This document shows positions 18,578 through 29,760 of a stretch of 32,349 nucleotides of DNA, piece after piece. Both the position numbers and the translations under genes were made by a program. This DNA comes from Empedobacter falsenii (GTDB lineage Bacteria > Bacteroidota > Bacteroidia > Flavobacteriales > Weeksellaceae), in the NCBI RefSeq assembly GCF_019308355.1, contig NZ_JAAGKM010000029.1, positions 1 through 32,349 of the forward strand. Reading direction: 5' to 3'. Each line of letters opens with the position of its first letter. Within the stretch, counting starts at the first letter, position 1. The notes under the pieces are model-generated. The model saw nothing but the letters and a program-made list of their open reading frames with translations, did not search any database and was not told the DNA's origin.

Positions 18578-18667
18578 TTTCACAATGTTGTGTTAATTAC
18601 GTGTTCTATTGTTGTAGAATTAAAAAATAAAAATTATTTTAGAGTATTAATTATAAACTACAACATA

Positions 18668-19420
18668 ATGAAACAATTATTATTAGCTGGATTTTTACTT
18701 TTTTCGAATTATGGTTTTGGGCAAGAAAAGCTTATTGTCGATTATAAATACGATATAAAGCATGATGAAGAAAAAATAAAGGAGTTTGAAAGAGAGCAAG
18801 CACAAAAAGGAGGAGGTACAATAAAAATTGGAGGGGCTCCAAATATTTATTATCAATTAGAATATAGTGATCATCAGTCCATTTACAAAAAAATAGAAAC
18901 CATTAATAATAATCAAAATGGTAGCTCTATGGGGGCTTTTTCAATTAATATTGGAGGAGAATATAAAGATCTGATTAATGAAACAAGTAAGAAAGAGTTT
19001 CGTCAAGAAGTCGTTTTAGATAAACAGAATTTTATTGTGGTTACACCATATAAAGATTATGAATGGAAAATTACAGATATTGAAGATACGATTTTGGGTC
19101 ACAAAGTAAAAAAAGCTATTGGTAATGATAAAGGCAAGCAAATAGCAGCTTGGTTTGCGCTAGATATTAAGGTTGATGCAGGGCCAAATCAAGTGAATGG
19201 ATTGCCAGGTTTGATTCTGAAAACGGTGAGCGAAACGGGTGGTAAATTTGGTTCGATTATGACTTATGAAGCGGATAAAATTAACTTAAACCCTAAGAAA
19301 ATGTCTAAAACTAAACCTATAAAAGGTGAAGAAATAACACAAGAAGAGTTTAAAAAATTGCAAGATGAATCTCGTCAAAAAATGAGAGAATCTTTTTCGA
19401 TAAGAGTGGACAAAAAATAA
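18668..19420 (+). CDS. GLPGLI family protein 1
   Basis: The 250-residue product starts with a signal peptide (MKQLLLAGFLLFSNYGFGQ) and so is exported. The body begins LIVDYKYD and has ILGHKVKKAI, AAWFALDI and the family motif GLPGLI at 178-183. The C-terminus is charged (KPIKGEEITQEEF). An in-frame upstream ATG at 18590 would add 26 residues without export character; the start at 18668 is chosen because it opens the signal peptide. GLPGLI (TIGR01200) is a Bacteroidota family of unknown function. It heads a tandem array of three genes with very short gaps, almost surely one operon. Confidence 0.9.
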   Translation: MKQLLLAGFLLFSNYGFGQEKLIVDYKYDIKHDEEKIKEFEREQAQKGGGTIKIGGAPNIYYQLEYSDHQSIYKKIETINNNQNGSSMGAFSINIGGEYKDLINETSKKEFRQEVVLDKQNFIVVTPYKDYEWKITDIEDTILGHKVKKAIGNDKGKQIAAWFALDIKVDAGPNQVNGLPGLILKTVSETGGKFGSIMTYEADKINLNPKKMSKTKPIKGEEITQEEFKKLQDESRQKMRESFSIRVDKK

Positions 19421-19426
19421 TTTTAA

Positions 19427-20152
19427 ATGAAATATTTAGTAATTTTCATTAGTTTTTTTTGTAATTTAGTTCAAGCGCAAGAAGCTCTAGAGATTGAATA
19501 TGAAGAAGTTTTTATTCCTAGAATTATAGGAAAAGATGGGAAGGAAGAAAAATTGGATGATGATTTTATAAAAGCACTTTCTGTTCCAAAAAATTATGTA
19601 CTACAAATAGAAAAAGGAAAAAGTGTTTTTTCTAAGATTGAGAAAATTAATAATTCTCAAGGGAATGCGTTAGTTACGATGTATGGTATTTTTTCGTATA
19701 ATTTTGAACAAGATTTCAATCAAAATAAAATGAAACAAGAATGGATGATAGAGAATAAAAAATACCTTGTAACTGATACCATTTCGACACATTATAAATA
19801 CGAATTAACGCAAGAAAAATCTACTTGTTTGGGTTTTGATGTTAAACAAGCAGTTGTAAAATATGATGACAATAATAAATCAATTATTTGGTACGCACCA
19901 AGTTTACCCAAACGTTTTGGTCCAAAAGAGTTCATTAATCTTCCAGGTTTGGTATTAAAAGTAGAATCTATTCGAAATGGAATTATTGATCCATCTTATT
20001 CTTTGAAAGCAACTTCTGTTACAACAAAAGATCATTTAGAATTTAAGAAATTATTCAAGGCTAAGGAAATTTCTAAAGCCGAATTTGAAAAGCTGAAAGC
20101 TGATTATAACCAACAAAGTTCGAATGAAAATCAAGGAGTAGATAAAGATTAA
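19427..20152 (+). CDS. GLPGLI family protein 2
   Basis: This is a 241-residue secreted protein. The signal peptide is MKYLVIFISFFCNLVQAQ. The family core is CLGFDVKQAVVKY, IIWYAPSL and NLPGLVLKVE, in which the motif has become NLPGLV (171-176). The gene begins 6 bp after the first GLPGLI gene, with 14 bp to the next. The C-terminus KEISKAEFEKLKADYNQQ resembles the tails of its neighbours, including the remnant downstream. Function is unknown. Confidence 0.88.
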   Translation: MKYLVIFISFFCNLVQAQEALEIEYEEVFIPRIIGKDGKEEKLDDDFIKALSVPKNYVLQIEKGKSVFSKIEKINNSQGNALVTMYGIFSYNFEQDFNQNKMKQEWMIENKKYLVTDTISTHYKYELTQEKSTCLGFDVKQAVVKYDDNNKSIIWYAPSLPKRFGPKEFINLPGLVLKVESIRNGIIDPSYSLKATSVTTKDHLEFKKLFKAKEISKAEFEKLKADYNQQSSNENQGVDKD

Positions 20153-20166
20153 TCTAAATAAAAACT

Positions 20167-20916
20167 ATGAAAAAATTACTATTGATTGTATTAAGCAGTT
20201 TGTGTTATTTTGTAAATGCTCAAGATGTTTTAGAAGTAGAATATGATGTATATACAGTATATGACGCAAGTAAAACTCAAGGTTCAGTTACAATTGACAA
20301 CCGCAAATTGAGTAAAGATGAGACGATTAAGTATTTTACTGAACAAATGAAAATTGCTAGACCTTATGTTTTAGTAACAAATAAAACCGCTTCTAATTAT
20401 AATCAAAAACCAACACTAAATGGTGGAAATTCAGTAAGCTATAGTAGTAATCAAGGAAATGGATTGTATTATAAAAATTTGCTTGAAAATTATTATATGC
20501 ACGAATCAGTTGGTTTTGGAATGGATCGAATTATCAAAGATTCTATTCCTAAAATTAATTGGACTATAACACGCGACAAAAAAAAAGTCTTAGGCTTTGA
20601 TGTTCGTAAAGCAACCGCAAAAATCAATAAAGAAGAGCTTACAGCTTGGTTTGCTACTTCCTTGTCTTTTCCTTCGGGACCAGATAAGTATATGGGATTA
20701 CCTGGTTTGATTTTAGAATTAGAAAGAAAAACAAACGACGATGCTGATATGGTTATTACGTACAAAGCAACATCTGTAAAAGAAGCGAAGAAAAATGTAA
20801 CAATAAATCAACCAAAGAAAGGGAAAATTGTTGATTTCAAAACGTATAAAGCAGAAATGGATGCTTTTTTTAAGAAACAACAAGAAATGAATAACCAAGG
20901 AGTGGATAAAAATTAA
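20167..20916 (+). CDS. GLPGLI family protein 3
   Basis: This is a 249-residue secreted protein with signal peptide MKKLLLIVLSSLCYFVNAQ. The family core is VLGFDVRKATAKI, ELTAWFATSLSFPSGP and MGLPGLILELE, with the canonical GLPGLI at 177-182. It carries a Ser/Asn-rich insertion around 77-100 compared with its neighbours. It is the last intact member of the array. The C-terminus VTINQPKKGKIVD resembles the start of the fragment that follows it. Function is unknown. Confidence 0.9.
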   Translation: MKKLLLIVLSSLCYFVNAQDVLEVEYDVYTVYDASKTQGSVTIDNRKLSKDETIKYFTEQMKIARPYVLVTNKTASNYNQKPTLNGGNSVSYSSNQGNGLYYKNLLENYYMHESVGFGMDRIIKDSIPKINWTITRDKKKVLGFDVRKATAKINKEELTAWFATSLSFPSGPDKYMGLPGLILELERKTNDDADMVITYKATSVKEAKKNVTINQPKKGKIVDFKTYKAEMDAFFKKQQEMNNQGVDKN

Positions 20917-22050: not shown

Positions 22051-24369
22051 ATGAAAGAAAATTTTATCGATAAATTACCCATCAAAATTATTTACTCGTT
22101 CCAATCGCTGATTGAAGAATTAGAACGATCTGAATACAACTTTGGAGAGTTTAAAGCTTTTTTAGAATATCTGAAAGCTACTCGACCAGAGTTGATTGAT
22201 GGTGTTGAAACATTTGAAGATTTTCAGAAAATTATTAAAGATGTTGAGCCAATTATTGAGAAAATTATTCCTAAACCATTTGTAAAATATAATTTAAAAG
22301 CGATAACTTTTCCTTTTTCTGACAAATTTATTTTTGCAACAGATCGACTTAAAGAGTTGATTGATAATAATGAATCACGACTAAAATTCAATTTTGAAGA
22401 TTTAGATTATGATACATTATATAAGTTTTGTTGTTGCTTCATCTTATCGAAATATTATCATAAAAATTTAGATTTTAATCTATCAAATCAGTTGGTGATA
22501 GACAATCAAAATGGCTACAGAATTTATCTTGGGACTGATATAAACCATGATTATTTTCGTATTTATCCATCCGAAGATAAATTTAAATTGACTGAAGATG
22601 AAATTGAAGAGTTGTTGAATAATTATGAAGATACAGCTTTGTGGATGAGAAAAATTCCAATTGGATCGTGGATTGCAAAAGGGTTTAATCTTGTTTCATT
22701 TTTTGATAATACGACTGAAATTGCACTTTCTAACTTAAAATCTAAATTATTATCTTATGGGGAACCTTTTAATATTGTTCGAAATGATATTATTTCTGCA
22801 TTAAAATCTATTTTTAGAATCAATAATTTAGAAGTCGGTTTTTCAGCTTATAATTCCGATAAAAATCAATTAGAAATTAGTCATTTATTACAATTGAATG
22901 ATAGTTTACTGATTGATAATCATAAAAAAATAAAACTGAATGAAGTTTTTTGTGCTGATTTAGAGAACAAAATATCGAAATCAGATTATTATGTTGTTTC
23001 TAATATTGACGCAGCTTTGGACAAGTTTCCACAAGATAAAATGTTGAGAATGGCAAATGAATCTGGTCTGAAAAGTTTGATTCTTTATCCATTGAAAAAC
23101 GGAAAATCTCATTTAGGTATTTTAGAAATAGGCTCGAAAGAAGCTGGAGTTTTCAATCGAATTAATGCAAACCTTTTACGCGAAATCACGCCTCTTTTAG
23201 AAGAATCTATTTATCGCTATACGGTAGAGTTTGAGAATCAAATCAATGCTTATATACAAACCGAATATACCTCGTTGCATCCAAGTGTAGATTGGAAATT
23301 TAGAGAAAAAGCTCGCGAACATATATTGCATCCGGGAAATACAAAACAAAAATTGCAGATCTCTTTTCAAAATGTATATCCAATTTATGGTGAATTGGAT
23401 GTGAGAAATTCGTCAGTGATTCGAAATCAATGTTTAAAAATGGATTATACTAATCAGATTAATTACTTGATTTTGATTTGTAACGAGTTATATAATCGTA
23501 CAAAAAAGAATAAATTTTTGGATTATAGTGACGATTTGACTGATTTTTTGCAACGAATAGATAATGTAGATAAAATCTATTTCGAAAGCGAATTATTTGA
23601 TTACATTACGTTGCATATTCATCCTGAAATTCCCAAATATGTAAAGGACAATGAGAAATCAATTATCGAAGAATATCTAAAAAAGTTAGATTCTACAACG
23701 GGATTATTTTACGTAGAACGCAAAAAATTTGACCAAACAATTGTAATGACAAATTCACTTTTGTCGAACAAATTAGACACTTTTCAGAAAGATGCTCAAG
23801 ATGTATTTCCGCATTATTACGAACGTTTCAAGACAGATGGAATTGATTACAATTTGTATGTTGGGCGAAGTATTGCGCCGTTCAAAAAATTCTCCTATCA
23901 AAATATTCGAGAAATTAGATATTGGCAACTACAAGCGATGATAGCCTTGGAACAATCTTACAAAGAAATTCAGAAAAAAACACCATTAAAAGTTGAGGTT
24001 GCTTCGTTGATTTTTGCAACGAATACCACTTTAGATATTTTGTTCAAATTAGATGAGAAACGTTTTGATGTTAATGGATATAACAATGCAAAATATGAAA
24101 TAATCAAGAAAAGATTGAGTAAAGCTTTTGTGAAAGGAACAAATGAACGAATCAATTTGCCACACAAAATTTGTATTATTTATACCGAAGATATCCTAAA
24201 AGAAGAATACTCAAATTATATCAATTTATTAATTGATAAGAAATTTTTGAAAAAAGATGTTGAATATTTGGAAATTGATGATTTGCAAGGTATAAGTGGT
24301 TTGCAAGCAATTAGAGTTTCGATTAATTATAAAAATAAACTCGAAAAATATACAAAAATAGAAGAATAA
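22051..24369 (+). CDS. Large GAF-domain protein of unknown function
   Basis: This is a 772-residue cytosolic protein with no signal peptide or membrane helix. A GAF-type sensor domain lies at about 243-390 (IISALKSIFRINN through LLREITPLLEESI). Two further conserved blocks follow: QNVYPIYGELDVRNSS near 440 and FPHYYERFKTDGIDYNLYVG near 586. Flavobacteriales carry homologues of this layout, and none has an established job. No histidine kinase, cyclase or GGDEF output domain was seen. The next gene, three bases downstream, is a START-like protein. That makes a two-gene operon ending in a strong terminator and suggests the pair work together. Confidence 0.75.
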   Translation: MKENFIDKLPIKIIYSFQSLIEELERSEYNFGEFKAFLEYLKATRPELIDGVETFEDFQKIIKDVEPIIEKIIPKPFVKYNLKAITFPFSDKFIFATDRLKELIDNNESRLKFNFEDLDYDTLYKFCCCFILSKYYHKNLDFNLSNQLVIDNQNGYRIYLGTDINHDYFRIYPSEDKFKLTEDEIEELLNNYEDTALWMRKIPIGSWIAKGFNLVSFFDNTTEIALSNLKSKLLSYGEPFNIVRNDIISALKSIFRINNLEVGFSAYNSDKNQLEISHLLQLNDSLLIDNHKKIKLNEVFCADLENKISKSDYYVVSNIDAALDKFPQDKMLRMANESGLKSLILYPLKNGKSHLGILEIGSKEAGVFNRINANLLREITPLLEESIYRYTVEFENQINAYIQTEYTSLHPSVDWKFREKAREHILHPGNTKQKLQISFQNVYPIYGELDVRNSSVIRNQCLKMDYTNQINYLILICNELYNRTKKNKFLDYSDDLTDFLQRIDNVDKIYFESELFDYITLHIHPEIPKYVKDNEKSIIEEYLKKLDSTTGLFYVERKKFDQTIVMTNSLLSNKLDTFQKDAQDVFPHYYERFKTDGIDYNLYVGRSIAPFKKFSYQNIREIRYWQLQAMIALEQSYKEIQKKTPLKVEVASLIFATNTTLDILFKLDEKRFDVNGYNNAKYEIIKKRLSKAFVKGTNERINLPHKICIIYTEDILKEEYSNYINLLIDKKFLKKDVEYLEIDDLQGISGLQAIRVSINYKNKLEKYTKIEE

Positions 24370-24819: not shown

Positions 24820-27800
24820 TTAAAATCCGAAATTCAAACCAAAAACGATTCGCCCTGGATCTTCACCTTTAAAGTATGAAACTGTTGCGGTAATAGATTG
24901 TGCTCCGTTTATCCAAAGTCCACCACCCATAGATGAATGCCATTTATTTGAGTCTTCTCCGTTTAACCAAACTCGTCCATAATCAGCTCCAACAAAAACG
25001 CCTAATCGCAATGGAACAACGGCTTTGAAACGTAAAGCATCAAATCGTAAATCAGATGTTTGTAAGAAAACTTTGTCTCCTGCAAAACGACCTAATCGAT
25101 AACCACGTAAATCCTGATCTCCACCTAAATTAGCCATTTGATAGAATTCCATAAAATTACCCCAAACTGCTTTACCTTTTAGCATAGAAGCAACTGTTAA
25201 TCTTCCATTTGCAGAGATTTTGTGTGTGAAACCTAAATTAAGTTCGGTATAAAAATGATTACGTTCAAAATCTGTCAAATTAGAAATCCACTTTGCATTT
25301 GCTAAAAATGTCATGCCTAATTTTGGCAATGATTCGTTATCGTAATTTTTGAACAAATATTTAGCTCCAATTTCTCCGAAATGTTGTCCTTTGAAAACGT
25401 CTCTATTAATTGATGGGAAATCTTCGACGATACGATCTTTATTCTCTTCAATCTTTTTGTAACTATAAATTGCAGAAAAATCTAAACGACCATTGTTATT
25501 CATAATCTTGAAAATAGACGGTCCAATGCTATAACTTTCTAATCGAACACGGTTATAATCCATTCCAATTTCTTCTTGATTATTCACGGTCTCGTTTCCT
25601 AAACCAAAGAAATTTGTACTATAAGTCGGGCTCGTGTAAGCTGCATTAAGATCTAAATTCCACTTACCCAACGCTTTTGTAAACGTTCCTTTATATTTGG
25701 CATCCCAACCGCCTGTCGCAAAATAATAACTTAATTGCAAATTGTGACGTTGCGAATATGGTTTACGATCAAAACCGTTGACAGTGTAGGTTGGCGATAA
25801 ACCAATTTTTATTCCGTCATCAGGATTGTAGCCAATATTAGGTAACATAGTAAAGAAATTATACATCGGTTGTTTGTAATCGTATGTATTAACCTCGTAA
25901 TCGTTGACAAAATTTTTCGATGTTAAAAAGGTAGATTCAGATGCATCGCTTCCGTTTGCGTAATCATATACTTTTACTTTTGCAGAACGCTTTACTTCGT
26001 ATATATCGTCATCTATTCCACCAATAATACGAACTAAAATAGCGTTATTTGGCTTTCCTTCAACCTTGAATTTATCTTTTCCGTTTAATCCATATAAACG
26101 AATTTCTTTCGTTTCTTTTTTATCAAAATCTTCATCAAGAATTAAAGTTCGATCTTGTCCTGAATAGATTTTTACATTTGTTTTTCCCTTTGGTAAACGA
26201 GTGATCACAAAATCTTCATCTTCGTTTGTTCCTTTCAGAATGATTAATTTGCGAAGAACTTTATTATATTCTTCTGCAAATTTTTCTAATTTAGATTTTC
26301 GGGCAATAAGATTATTGATTACTTCTTGATCGTATTCTTGTTTTGTTTCTTCAGGAATTAATTCAAATGATTGTTTGATATAATCATCACTCAAATTATC
26401 TTGAATATATTTTGCTTCTTTTATCCATAATTCAAGATCGGATGATTCTAAAATGGCTAAATCCAACGGATAAGGTTCTCTATTGAACCATTTTACATTT
26501 TTGATATCATCTTTATAATCTTGCATATGTCTCAAAGGAGGAATTTTCATAATTAAATGAAAGAAAAGTCCATCATAACGTGGAAATGCTTGATCTCTAT
26601 CGCGTGGAATTGGTTTATAAATAGTTTGTTTATTTTCTTTGTAAACGCCCCAACGCCATTGGTCAGAATGTCGATCCCAATCTCCAACTAACATATCAAA
26701 AAGTCGTGCACGAATATAGGCTTGCTTATCCACGACAACATCTTTGTTTTTGTGAATCGCAGCCAACATATCATCTGTGCTAACAATATCTTTTGGTTTT
26801 CCGAAAACACCGTCTTGATATCCGGACATTGGTCGTTCTTCTATCATGTATAATTCATCACCAAAATTTTCATTATATGCTTTCAAGGCTTCTTGTTTTG
26901 GAACATAATATAATTTTGGCGTAGAATGCATAATATTGATCGGTTTCATCAAATTAGCAACTGTTAATGGATAATATGGATGATTGGTTGTATAGAAATC
27001 CATCAAAAATTTCTCTGTGAACGAATCTTCAAACTCATCTGCAACATATTTATTTTTAAATGCAACTTGCTGAATAAATTGGGTGGCACTTTTCTTCACC
27101 GATCGCATATTGTATTCTTCACCTTTTGCATTTGTCAATCTCAAACTTTGCGTTTGATGTCCACCACCCATTCTAACTGGGGTTAAACCTCCATTTAGCT
27201 GACTTAAATTAACGGTATTAGCAGTAATTGTTTGACCATATGTTCGACGATAATGGCGACCAAAAAAGAATTTATACGGATCAGATTTACGTGTAACTTC
27301 TAATGGATATACACTTGTTTCTTTCGTTTTTGGCATTTTTTTATCATCATAAACTTGAGCCAAATATTCCTTTTTCTTTTCTGTAATTTGTTTCGCTAAT
27401 AATAATTCGATTCCACCGTCTTTAAAACCATAGAAATTAGCTTTAGAAGCGCCATTATCATATAAATCTAGTACAACAAAACCATTATCTCCGTAAGAAA
27501 AATCGTTTTTGCCAACCGCTTTTGCCGATTCTTTTTTAGAACCAGAACCGCTGATAATTTGTTTAACATTGTTTTGCTGAATGTATTGCAAGTTGTGATC
27601 GTGTCCAGAAACAACAATTACATTATTTCTATTTTCGATAAGTGTTGCAATACGAGAAGCCATCTCTCTGTATTTGAAATTATTAACGTCTTGAGGGCTA
27701 AGACCTGTTGTACTTCGTAGTAAATTGATAAAAGATCCAATTACAGGTAATGGAACTTTGAAATTATCTCCTAATGGATAAAACTGTTTTTTGAAATCAA

Positions 27801-28542
27801 ATTGTCCACCATGTGTTCCGTTCGAATATAGCGGATGATGCATTGTGATAACAGTTGTTCTGTTTTGATATTTGTTCAATTGCGATTCTAGTTCTTCAAA
27901 GAAAGCTTCGCGCGATTTAATATCACATTTTTCATTTAGACCAGGATGTTTATCCCAGTCTTGCAAATACCATTCAGAATCTATCGCAATAATTCCGATG
28001 CTATCATTTACATTTATTTTATCAATTGGACATGCATCTTTTGGTAAAAAAGCTTTTTTATTACCCAATTGTTTTTTGACTAATTTTTCTTGTTCTTTTA
28101 ATCCTTTTACACCATTTCGCCAATCATGATTTCCTGGAATAAAAAGAGTTTTTCCTTTAAATTCTTTCGCTAAATCAATCTGAAATTGAAGCTTCTCTCT
28201 ACTTGTTGTGTATTCAGCTTTTGTAGAATCCGTTACAATTCCATTTTCGTAAACATTATCACCTAAAAAGAAAAGATAAGAAGAAGAGTCAGCTTTCGCT
28301 AATTGATTCTTTAAAATTTCTAAATTTTGTTTATTTTTTGGTTGATCAAGATCTCCTGCATCGCCAATTAAATAGATAGATTGAATTTTATTTCCTTCTA
28401 CATTTTGTACTTTTTCTGTCTTAATGTTTTTCCCATATTGAGGATGTTGCGTAGCGCAAGATGTCATATAAAGGCAAGAACCTACTAAAGCCAAAAAAGG
28501 ATAATTCAATTTTTTGTTGTTTAGTGTTGGTAATAATTTCAT
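24820..28542 (-). CDS. Lipoprotein with purple-acid-phosphatase-like domain, kinase-like segment and Omp85-type barrel
   Basis: The 1240-residue product starts at 28542, where MKLLPTL leads into a lipoprotein signal (YMTSC, Cys29; VGSC, Cys23, is an alternative). An earlier ATG at 28575 would overlap the divergent gene and spoil the signal. Residues 55-375 are a metallophosphoesterase: GDAGD 60-64, GDN 94-96, GNHDW 137-141, MHHP 234-237 and GHDH 313-316. Residues 455-655 look kinase-like by eye: GGGHQTQSLRLT (459-470), YNMRSVKK (477-484), VGDWDRHSDQW (619-629) and PIPRDRDQAF (644-653). From about 900 to the terminal Phe1240 lies an outer-membrane barrel with GGDQDLRGYRLG (1140-1151), the Omp85/surface-antigen motif. 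It should be anchored in the outer membrane. The exact reaction is unknown. Confidence 0.82.
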   Translation of the reverse strand: MKLLPTLNNKKLNYPFLALVGSCLYMTSCATQHPQYGKNIKTEKVQNVEGNKIQSIYLIGDAGDLDQPKNKQNLEILKNQLAKADSSSYLFFLGDNVYENGIVTDSTKAEYTTSREKLQFQIDLAKEFKGKTLFIPGNHDWRNGVKGLKEQEKLVKKQLGNKKAFLPKDACPIDKINVNDSIGIIAIDSEWYLQDWDKHPGLNEKCDIKSREAFFEELESQLNKYQNRTTVITMHHPLYSNGTHGGQFDFKKQFYPLGDNFKVPLPVIGSFINLLRSTTGLSPQDVNNFKYREMASRIATLIENRNNVIVVSGHDHNLQYIQQNNVKQIISGSGSKKESAKAVGKNDFSYGDNGFVVLDLYDNGASKANFYGFKDGGIELLLAKQITEKKKEYLAQVYDDKKMPKTKETSVYPLEVTRKSDPYKFFFGRHYRRTYGQTITANTVNLSQLNGGLTPVRMGGGHQTQSLRLTNAKGEEYNMRSVKKSATQFIQQVAFKNKYVADEFEDSFTEKFLMDFYTTNHPYYPLTVANLMKPINIMHSTPKLYYVPKQEALKAYNENFGDELYMIEERPMSGYQDGVFGKPKDIVSTDDMLAAIHKNKDVVVDKQAYIRARLFDMLVGDWDRHSDQWRWGVYKENKQTIYKPIPRDRDQAFPRYDGLFFHLIMKIPPLRHMQDYKDDIKNVKWFNREPYPLDLAILESSDLELWIKEAKYIQDNLSDDYIKQSFELIPEETKQEYDQEVINNLIARKSKLEKFAEEYNKVLRKLIILKGTNEDEDFVITRLPKGKTNVKIYSGQDRTLILDEDFDKKETKEIRLYGLNGKDKFKVEGKPNNAILVRIIGGIDDDIYEVKRSAKVKVYDYANGSDASESTFLTSKNFVNDYEVNTYDYKQPMYNFFTMLPNIGYNPDDGIKIGLSPTYTVNGFDRKPYSQRHNLQLSYYFATGGWDAKYKGTFTKALGKWNLDLNAAYTSPTYSTNFFGLGNETVNNQEEIGMDYNRVRLESYSIGPSIFKIMNNNGRLDFSAIYSYKKIEENKDRIVEDFPSINRDVFKGQHFGEIGAKYLFKNYDNESLPKLGMTFLANAKWISNLTDFERNHFYTELNLGFTHKISANGRLTVASMLKGKAVWGNFMEFYQMANLGGDQDLRGYRLGRFAGDKVFLQTSDLRFDALRFKAVVPLRLGVFVGADYGRVWLNGEDSNKWHSSMGGGLWINGAQSITATVSYFKGEDPGRIVFGLNFGF

Positions 28543-28566
28543 ACATTTAAGCGTTAAAAACTTGTG

Positions 28567-29760
28567 ATGAACCAATTGTTATTAAATATAGAAAACTATG
28601 TTTTCAATCTGTTCAAAGATAATCTTTCTTTAGATTTTACGTATCATAATTTTATGCATACCGTAAAAGTTGTAGAAGCAATAAAAACGTTGTCTACTGA
28701 TGAGCAAATATCTACAGATTTACGAGAAAAATTATTAATAGCGGGTTGGTTTCATGATACGGGTTACACAAAAATCGTGCAAGGGCATGAAAGTGAGAGT
28801 GCAAACATTGCAAAAGAGTATTTGATTGAGCATAATTTTGACGAAAATTACATCAAAGAAGTCCAAGATTATATTTTAATCACAGCGCTAAATAATGTTC
28901 CAAAAAATATAGGTGAAGCAATTGTAAAAGATGCAGATAACTATCATTTAGGACAAACTGAATATCCTAAAATTTCTGAGTTATTACGTGATGAAATAGC
29001 TAAAATATGTCACAAAGAATTTTCTGATTATGAATGGCATGTAGAGAATAGAAATTTTTTTCTAAACATACATCATTTTTATACGGATGCCGCAAAAAAG
29101 CTTTGGCAGAAAGGAAAAGAAGAAAATTTGATCTTTACCCAAAATAAAATCAAAGAGATAGAGTTGATTGGTGATATTCCCAATAAGTATGAAATCAAGA
29201 AAAAGAAAAACGATAAGATTCAACAACCAGATCGTGGTGTTGATACACTTTTTCGTGTAACGTTGAACAATCATACTCGTTTAAGTGATATTGCCGATAG
29301 TAAAGCTAATATATTATTGTCTGTAAACGCGATCGTGATTTCGATTGCACTTTCTACTTTGGTTCCAAAGTTAGGAAGTCCAAAGAATGAGTATTTACTT
29401 TTACCTTCAATTGTAATGCTTTTATCAAGTGTTGTTTCAATTATTTTTGCAATTTTAGCAACTAAACCAAATGTAACATACGAAAGTTTTAACGAAGAAG
29501 ATGTCAAAAACAAAAAAGTGAATTTGCTTTTCTTTGGTAATTTTTATCAAATGTCACTTGAAGCCTACGATGATGCTATGCAAGAGTTGATGAAAGACAG
29601 AGATTATGTATATACTTCTTTGACAAGGGATTTGTATTATTTAGGAAAAGTTTTGGAACGAAAATATCGTTTGTTAAGCATAACCTACACAATTTTTATG
29701 ATTGGAACTATTTTATCTGTTCTAACGTTTGCTTACGCGATGATCACAAATGTTGCTTAA
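28567..29760 (+). CDS. HD phosphohydrolase fused to a PycTM-type membrane domain
   Basis: This 397-residue protein starts at ATG 28567; a GTG at 28564 would add one residue. The N-terminal HD domain (about 5-180) has His31 (NFMHTV), His63-Asp64 (GWFHDTGY), His74 (GHES) and Asp122/Asp124 (KDADNYH). This is a complete metal site for a nucleotide phosphodiesterase or phosphohydrolase. The C-terminal part (about 225-397) begins RVTLNNHTRLSDIADSKANI, the start of the DUF5706/PycTM membrane domain known from Pycsar defence effectors. Its helices lie at about 247-266, 277-299 and 368-391. Canonical Pycsar pairs the effector with a cyclase, but none is in this window. It may be a housekeeping relative acting on a cyclic or other nucleotide. 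It is divergent from the phosphatase-Omp85 gene. Confidence 0.85.
   Translation: MNQLLLNIENYVFNLFKDNLSLDFTYHNFMHTVKVVEAIKTLSTDEQISTDLREKLLIAGWFHDTGYTKIVQGHESESANIAKEYLIEHNFDENYIKEVQDYILITALNNVPKNIGEAIVKDADNYHLGQTEYPKISELLRDEIAKICHKEFSDYEWHVENRNFFLNIHHFYTDAAKKLWQKGKEENLIFTQNKIKEIELIGDIPNKYEIKKKKNDKIQQPDRGVDTLFRVTLNNHTRLSDIADSKANILLSVNAIVISIALSTLVPKLGSPKNEYLLLPSIVMLLSSVVSIIFAILATKPNVTYESFNEEDVKNKKVNLLFFGNFYQMSLEAYDDAMQELMKDRDYVYTSLTRDLYYLGKVLERKYRLLSITYTIFMIGTILSVLTFAYAMITNVA

Follow-up and report, generated by a model that had tools for sequence, protein, structure and literature searches.

Can one outer-membrane protein combine a phosphatase, a kinase and an Omp85 barrel? The question is raised by a minus-strand gene of Empedobacter falsenii, on a stretch of 32,349 nucleotides of contig NZ_JAAGKM010000029.1 (assembly GCF_019308355.1; the window, meaning the whole stretch analysed). 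An earlier note on this DNA had read a phosphoesterase, a kinase-like segment and an Omp85 barrel in the translated protein. We computed the architecture, predicted fold, site conservation, independent occurrence of the parts and gene neighbourhood. Judging by its model, the kinase-like segment (KL) is a new kinase-fold family within a known type of Omp85 architecture. We favour, as probable but well short of certain, an outer-membrane lipoprotein with an active periplasmic phosphotransferase and an opposing phosphatase, acting on envelope substrates in a system linked to polyphosphate and cyclic nucleotides.

The open reading frame (ORF) is open from 24820 to 28575, with a TTG at 28575 upstream of the first ATG at 28542. 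We number residues (q) on the 1250-residue translation of 24820-28572, so that the earlier note's numbers plus 10 give q. The gene is present in one copy in the source genome, and PF00149 was the sole family above the cut-off in a Pfam scan of the protein. Between phosphatase and barrel, no family matched significantly.

The KL segment was modelled with a predicted local distance difference test (pLDDT) score of 89.7, and kinase folds headed both its Foldseek and VIA match lists, with HipA and CtkA kinases as the best Foldseek matches. The predicted fold is thus a kinase fold rather than an unrelated one. All motifs that had suggested a kinase are present: GGG at q469-471, KK at q493-494, GDWDRHSDQW at q630-639 and PIPRDRDQAF at q654-663. 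A strand of the model (its residues 82-90) corresponds to q486-494 and ends on K494, and the order of elements in the model fits an N-lobe Gly loop, a Lys strand, a catalytic loop and a metal site. In hhalign alignments, GDWDRHSDQW falls on the catalytic loops of CotH and HipA, and PIPRDRDQAF on the IP-x-D-x-D block of CotH. A profile of the KL alignment retrieved six weak matches from PDB, with CtkA at rank 3 (E 0.32); among the three alignments listed, only that of CtkA covers the catalytic loop, where its LLGNFDRHNGNW aligns to LVGDWDRHSDQW of the window. By fold and ordered site residues, the modelled segment belongs to the protein kinase-like fold superfamily.

Conservation was assessed in 85 aligned sequences (the window and 84 ORFs matching at E<=1e-10 across q640-700, with the duplicate locus L046 dropped), a set rich in Flavobacteriales. 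K494 was kept in 95%, D631 in 99%, D633 in 94%, H635 in 92%, and D658 and D660 in 93% each. The earlier note had proposed Lys483/484, Asp623 and Asp650 as site residues: Lys484 (K494), Asp623 (q633) and Asp650 (q660) are conserved and Lys483 (q493) is variable, while D658 (its 648) is conserved to the same degree as the two Asp. The tetrad K494/D633/D658/D660 was intact in 77 of the 85 sequences: 58/59 long, 14/21 barrel-only and 5/5 short ORFs, where classes were assigned by ORF length and long was taken as phosphatase-bearing. D626 and G668 were kept in 85/85 and D704 in 83/85, tetrad exceptions included. A contig scan, in which at least 592 of 594 pattern matches were confirmed as relatives of the segment, provided a close set of the best 80; there, the tetrad was intact in 79/79. 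For CotH, either substitution, D228Q or D251A, is reported to abolish catalysis (PMC7821199); these two Asp lie 23 residues apart, compared with 25 from q633 to q658 in KL.

Relatives are common in the phylum: 151 of 296 sampled genomes matched at E<=0.001, a count that includes partial barrel or phosphatase matches. Near-full-length homologues were many, with identities of 35-48% at the top of the matches listed, and the closest named relative among the matches listed was Chishuiella changwenlii (79%). The segment occurs in full-length proteins (about 1250 amino acids), with the barrel and no phosphatase (about 870), or nearly alone (429-579). At two loci (L051 and L052), segment, phosphatase and barrel are three adjacent ORFs, and two short ORFs (L048, L049) start with a hydrophobic stretch resembling a membrane anchor. 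These varied architectures indicate that KL is a separable domain. None of seven candidates was confirmed when viral contigs were scanned with the KL alignment, and a tblastn search of phages gave no match. Among five plasmid records with a KL gene, four annotate it as hypothetical protein and the fifth has no feature there. Two of these plasmid genes, annotated hypothetical, are from Hymenobacter monticola (L293) and H. radiodurans (L295); one is near PAP2 phosphatases and the other adjoins an undecaprenyl-diphosphate phosphatase.

The other two parts were also borne out. PF00149 matched q66-266 with E 5.6e-9 and 37.1 bits, above its cut-off of 21.5, and the metal-site residues D71, D105, N148, H149, H246, H324 and H326 are all in the window protein. 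The metal site was intact in 75/79 close relatives and in 55/58 of a diverse set. The domain resembles GAP50, by phmmer and by Foldseek with the whole model (3tgh, E 2.7e-9, rank 40). A phmmer search of the whole protein against PDB returned nine matches and no kinase: GAP50, purple/tartrate-resistant acid phosphatases, a leucine-rich repeat protein and a carboxypeptidase. In the closest relative, from Chishuiella (L118:3882-7451), GDDDW stands where the window has GNHDW; this phosphatase site may be broken, and its kinase tetrad is intact. For the barrel, Omp85_fam of NCBIfam matched q1039-1250 with E 6.9e-18, although its 65.3 bits are below the cut-off of 200. The full model (q60-1250; pLDDT 87.8, predicted template-modelling score 0.87) shows 16 long barrel strands, and its Foldseek matches are led by BamA and TamA (best E 2.5e-12, to BamA). 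POTRA families were absent from the Pfam and NCBIfam matches of the protein, and Omp85 subfamilies without POTRA have been described (PMC4104836).

Regarding placement in the envelope, a strict lipobox pattern was found in 25/80 close relatives. A relaxed pattern, adopted after that result, gave lipobox-like motifs in 71/80 close relatives, 39/58 diverse full-length relatives and 2/5 short members. Acidic residues follow the lipobox Cys in 5/71 close and 6/39 diverse sequences; the other 66 close ones have none between +2 and +7. Omp85 N-terminal domains lie in the periplasm, and surface lipoproteins of Bacteroidota bear an acidic export signal. Since the domains precede the barrel and the lipobox lacks that signal, they most likely face the periplasm; from the earlier proposal of a surface or periplasmic protein, the periplasmic half is favoured and the surface half disfavoured.

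Table 1. Features of the gene and its neighbours, in window coordinates.
Feature	Position	Strand	Basis
MPE-KL-Omp85 gene (metallophosphoesterase (MPE), kinase-like segment, linker, barrel)	24820..28542	-	from first ATG
Predicted signal peptide with lipobox (..CLYMTSC/ATQHPQYGK), Cys q39	28456..28542	-	sequence
Metallophosphoesterase domain, about q62-375; GDAG, GDN, GNHD, HHP, GHDH motifs	27448..28389	-	PF00149, GAP50 matches
Predicted kinase-fold domain KL, about q438-775	26248..27261	-	model, Foldseek and VIA matches
Region q461-473 with Gly-rich loop (GG...GGGxQ), flanked by two N-lobe strands of model	27154..27192	-	conservation, secondary structure
K494, putative nucleotide-binding Lys, ends next N-lobe strand	27091..27093	-	conservation, model strand
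Putative catalytic loop GDWDRHSDQW q630-639 with D633	26656..26685	-	profile alignment to CtkA, CotH, HipA loops
Putative metal site PIPRDRDQAF q654-663 (D658, D660)	26584..26613	-	alignment to CotH IP-x-D-x-D block, conservation
Beta-rich linker, kinase fold to barrel, about q776-890	25903..26247	-	model secondary structure
Omp85 beta-barrel, about q906-1250	24823..25857	-	NCBIfam Omp85_fam, Foldseek, model strands
HD + PycTM protein, divergent neighbour	28564..29760 (about)	+	PF18967 3.9e-34, PF01966 2.4e-7
772-amino-acid GAF-family protein, other side of gene	22051..24369	+	recurrent neighbour

Both neighbours of the gene recur (Table 1). Among the 80 close relatives, some on contigs that end early, an HD-PycTM homologue is near the KL gene in 65 (upstream and divergent in 63) and the 772-amino-acid family in 55. 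The 772-amino-acid protein itself had no Pfam match at E<=0.001; its NCBIfam match to PRK15429 (5.4e-6) is far under the cut-off, and a homologue (L242) has a GAF domain (4.1e-7). Elsewhere in the window (18590-20916), three tandem ORFs of about 250 amino acids have matches like Porph_ging and PNGase_F-II_N, perhaps a local expansion.

More distant loci were compared in 54 genomes, over 60 locus windows that span at most 20 kb (three shortened by contig ends). These genomes were hand-picked for diversity after PPK1 had been noticed in six loci. Each neighbour family was assigned with blastp from one or two examples, so that short or split ORFs may hold a partial family. HD-PycTM was found in 29 of the locus windows, a propeller protein in 24, PPK1 in 17, a class III cyclase in 15, a SixA-like protein in 11, GAF in 6, and Ppx and CotH in 3 each. 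The propeller example matches the SdiA-regulated family PF06977 above the cut-off, which we take to be a propeller family, with a phytase-like match below the cut-off; its gene lies about 250 bp or less upstream on the same strand in 22/24 loci (for instance, L239:7034-7927). In 9/15, the cyclase gene is on the same strand as KL and at most 150 bp downstream of it. For PPK1, 16 of the 77 copies in the 54 genomes have a KL gene no more than 5 kb away, where an assumed random placement, given at least 68 KL places, would yield 0.33; 10 of the 16 are left after dropping the six genomes where PPK1 was first seen. In distant relatives HD-PycTM, with its Pycsar effector domain, is paired with class III cyclases, an arrangement that recalls components of Pycsar but may instead represent phosphate signalling.

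From these data we infer topology, catalytic activity, donor and substrate, and a substrate common to both domains. The barrel would anchor the predicted lipoprotein in the outer membrane, with the N-terminal enzyme domains facing the periplasm. KL, whose predicted fold places it in the PI4KII/CotH/HipA/CtkA branch of kinases and whose site looks complete, would act as a phosphotransferase or another transfer enzyme. It would add phosphate to envelope substrates and the metallophosphoesterase would remove it, and both may belong to a larger system connected with the metabolism of polyphosphate and cyclic nucleotides. The periplasm normally has no available ATP, which makes the phosphoryl donor the least secure part of the mechanism. 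Polyphosphate is a candidate donor suggested by the PPK1 linkage, which as a neighbourhood alone is no demonstration.

That ATP shortage weighs against an active phosphotransferase, and several further results weigh against parts of this reading. No kinase family matched the window protein at E<=10 in Pfam or NCBIfam. Template-modelling scores of the Foldseek matches were low, with TMq 0.14-0.34 for the best 12, partly because the model spans more than the kinase domain. The hhalign probabilities were just 24 and 31%, and a control with an unrelated phosphatase scored 24.0 too. Membership in CotH (PF08757) was rejected, with no match of the window at E<=10 and just two of 52 members matching (E 0.013 at best). 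The catalytic loop carries Q638 (94% of the 85 sequences), at a position where typical kinases have Asn. Four loci (L118, L168, L190 and L197) combine an altered phosphatase site with an intact kinase tetrad; coupling of the two activities is thus not strict, and each domain can decay on its own. On placement, a lipobox-like motif was found in just 2/21 barrel-only members, and the topology is drawn from family knowledge. Regarding the wider system, just 20/54 genomes have PPK1 no more than 20 kb from a KL gene; in the source genome, Ppx, PPK1 and a SixA-like gene stand side by side on another contig (L289, contig C16), away from the KL gene, and the link there rests on relatives only. Finally, seven of the 21 barrel-only members lack the full tetrad (L053, L063, L065 and L083-L086); judging by their sequences they are likely pseudokinases, and such proteins may thus make up part of the family.

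The rival that survives best, unlikely in our view, extends this to the protein itself: KL would be a pseudoenzyme that retains the kinase fold and pocket and serves as structure or binds a substrate without any transfer, leaving the phosphatase as sole enzyme and the barrel as anchor. It would account for Q638, for a periplasm with no known ATP supply, and for the altered tetrad in eight of the 85 sequences, seven of them barrel-only. However, all but one of the long members and every short one retain the four residues, and among the eight exceptions, seven lack at least two of them, as expected if the site works as a unit.

We give somewhat less credence to a machine mainly for protein translocation or barrel assembly, with the N-terminal domains as passengers delivered to the surface, as proposed for PlpD. 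The barrel is of BamA/TamA type, a role in assembly or translocation has been taken as the cautious default for Omp85 subfamilies not yet described, and surface delivery is one option given for the 'Metallo' subfamily (PMC4104836). Yet both the kinase-fold domain and the phosphatase are found without a barrel, POTRA matches are missing, and most close lipobox-like motifs lack the acidic signal, which points to the periplasm. A chance convergence of motifs in a segment of another fold would fit the missing family match and weak hhalign probabilities, but it is hardly credible given the confident model, the kinase-led match lists, the hhalign alignment of the loops, and the strand and motif order of kinases.

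The preferred reading, a periplasmic phosphotransferase and phosphatase on one barrel, differs from known systems. Heinz and Lithgow (2014) described a 'Metallo' Omp85 subfamily with PF00149 N-terminal to the barrel, a non-POTRA architecture; they considered it conserved at genus level only and termed PF00149 a metalloprotease (PMC4104836). The window family shares this order of domains and may belong to that set. The main text of that paper lacks the word 'kinase', and its passages on Omp85 subfamilies mention neither a kinase-fold domain nor its occurrence apart from the barrel; by term search, the main texts of PMC12045153 and PMC12611786, both on how Bacteroidota build the outer membrane, contain neither kinase nor phosphoesterase. 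A literature search of titles and abstract openings, with subscription papers mostly outside it, found no description of the kinase-like domain, the fusion or the neighbourhood. Thus, the suggestion of an undescribed protein needs narrowing: a phosphatase joined to Omp85 was already known, whereas the kinase-fold domain is absent from those passages.

The proposed CotH/FAM20/HipA-type assignment stood for the kinase fold and the conserved site but not, by Pfam profile, for CotH or HipA_C. KL does not pass the CotH profile cut-off and is fused to, or lies beside, an Omp85 barrel; CotH matches are absent from the source genome. HipA_C (PF07804) had no match to the window at E<=10 and was absent among the matches listed (25 of 33 families) for 52 KL members; the three HipA matches of the source genome are all on other contigs. 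Unlike HipA and CtkA, the window protein is predicted to be extracytoplasmic and anchored in the outer membrane. PI4-kinase type II and FAM20-type kinases have about 10% identity to KL, which gives no sign of family relation. In Riemerella anatipestifer, a flavobacterial relative, a metallophosphoesterase has reported phosphatase activity and is listed as a type IX secretion system effector (Niu 2021, as cited in PMC10202324), a likeness to the window protein by description only. Riemerella OMP76 was rejected as this protein, being an IreA-family TonB-dependent receptor.

A kinase-fold family with a conserved site has so far gone unannotated, although many Bacteroidota carry relatives. An active KL would place a kinase and a phosphatase in a single outer-membrane protein and raise the question of the periplasmic phosphoryl donor, for which the repeated presence of PPK1, cyclase and HD-PycTM genes nearby supplies a concrete hypothesis. 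At its boldest, and unlikely as a whole, an outer-membrane phosphotransferase using polyphosphate or exported nucleotide in an ATP-poor periplasm, with its same-chain phosphatase and the propeller, class III cyclase, HD-PycTM, SixA-like and PPK1 proteins, would form an undescribed envelope-spanning system for phosphate signalling or storage in Bacteroidota.
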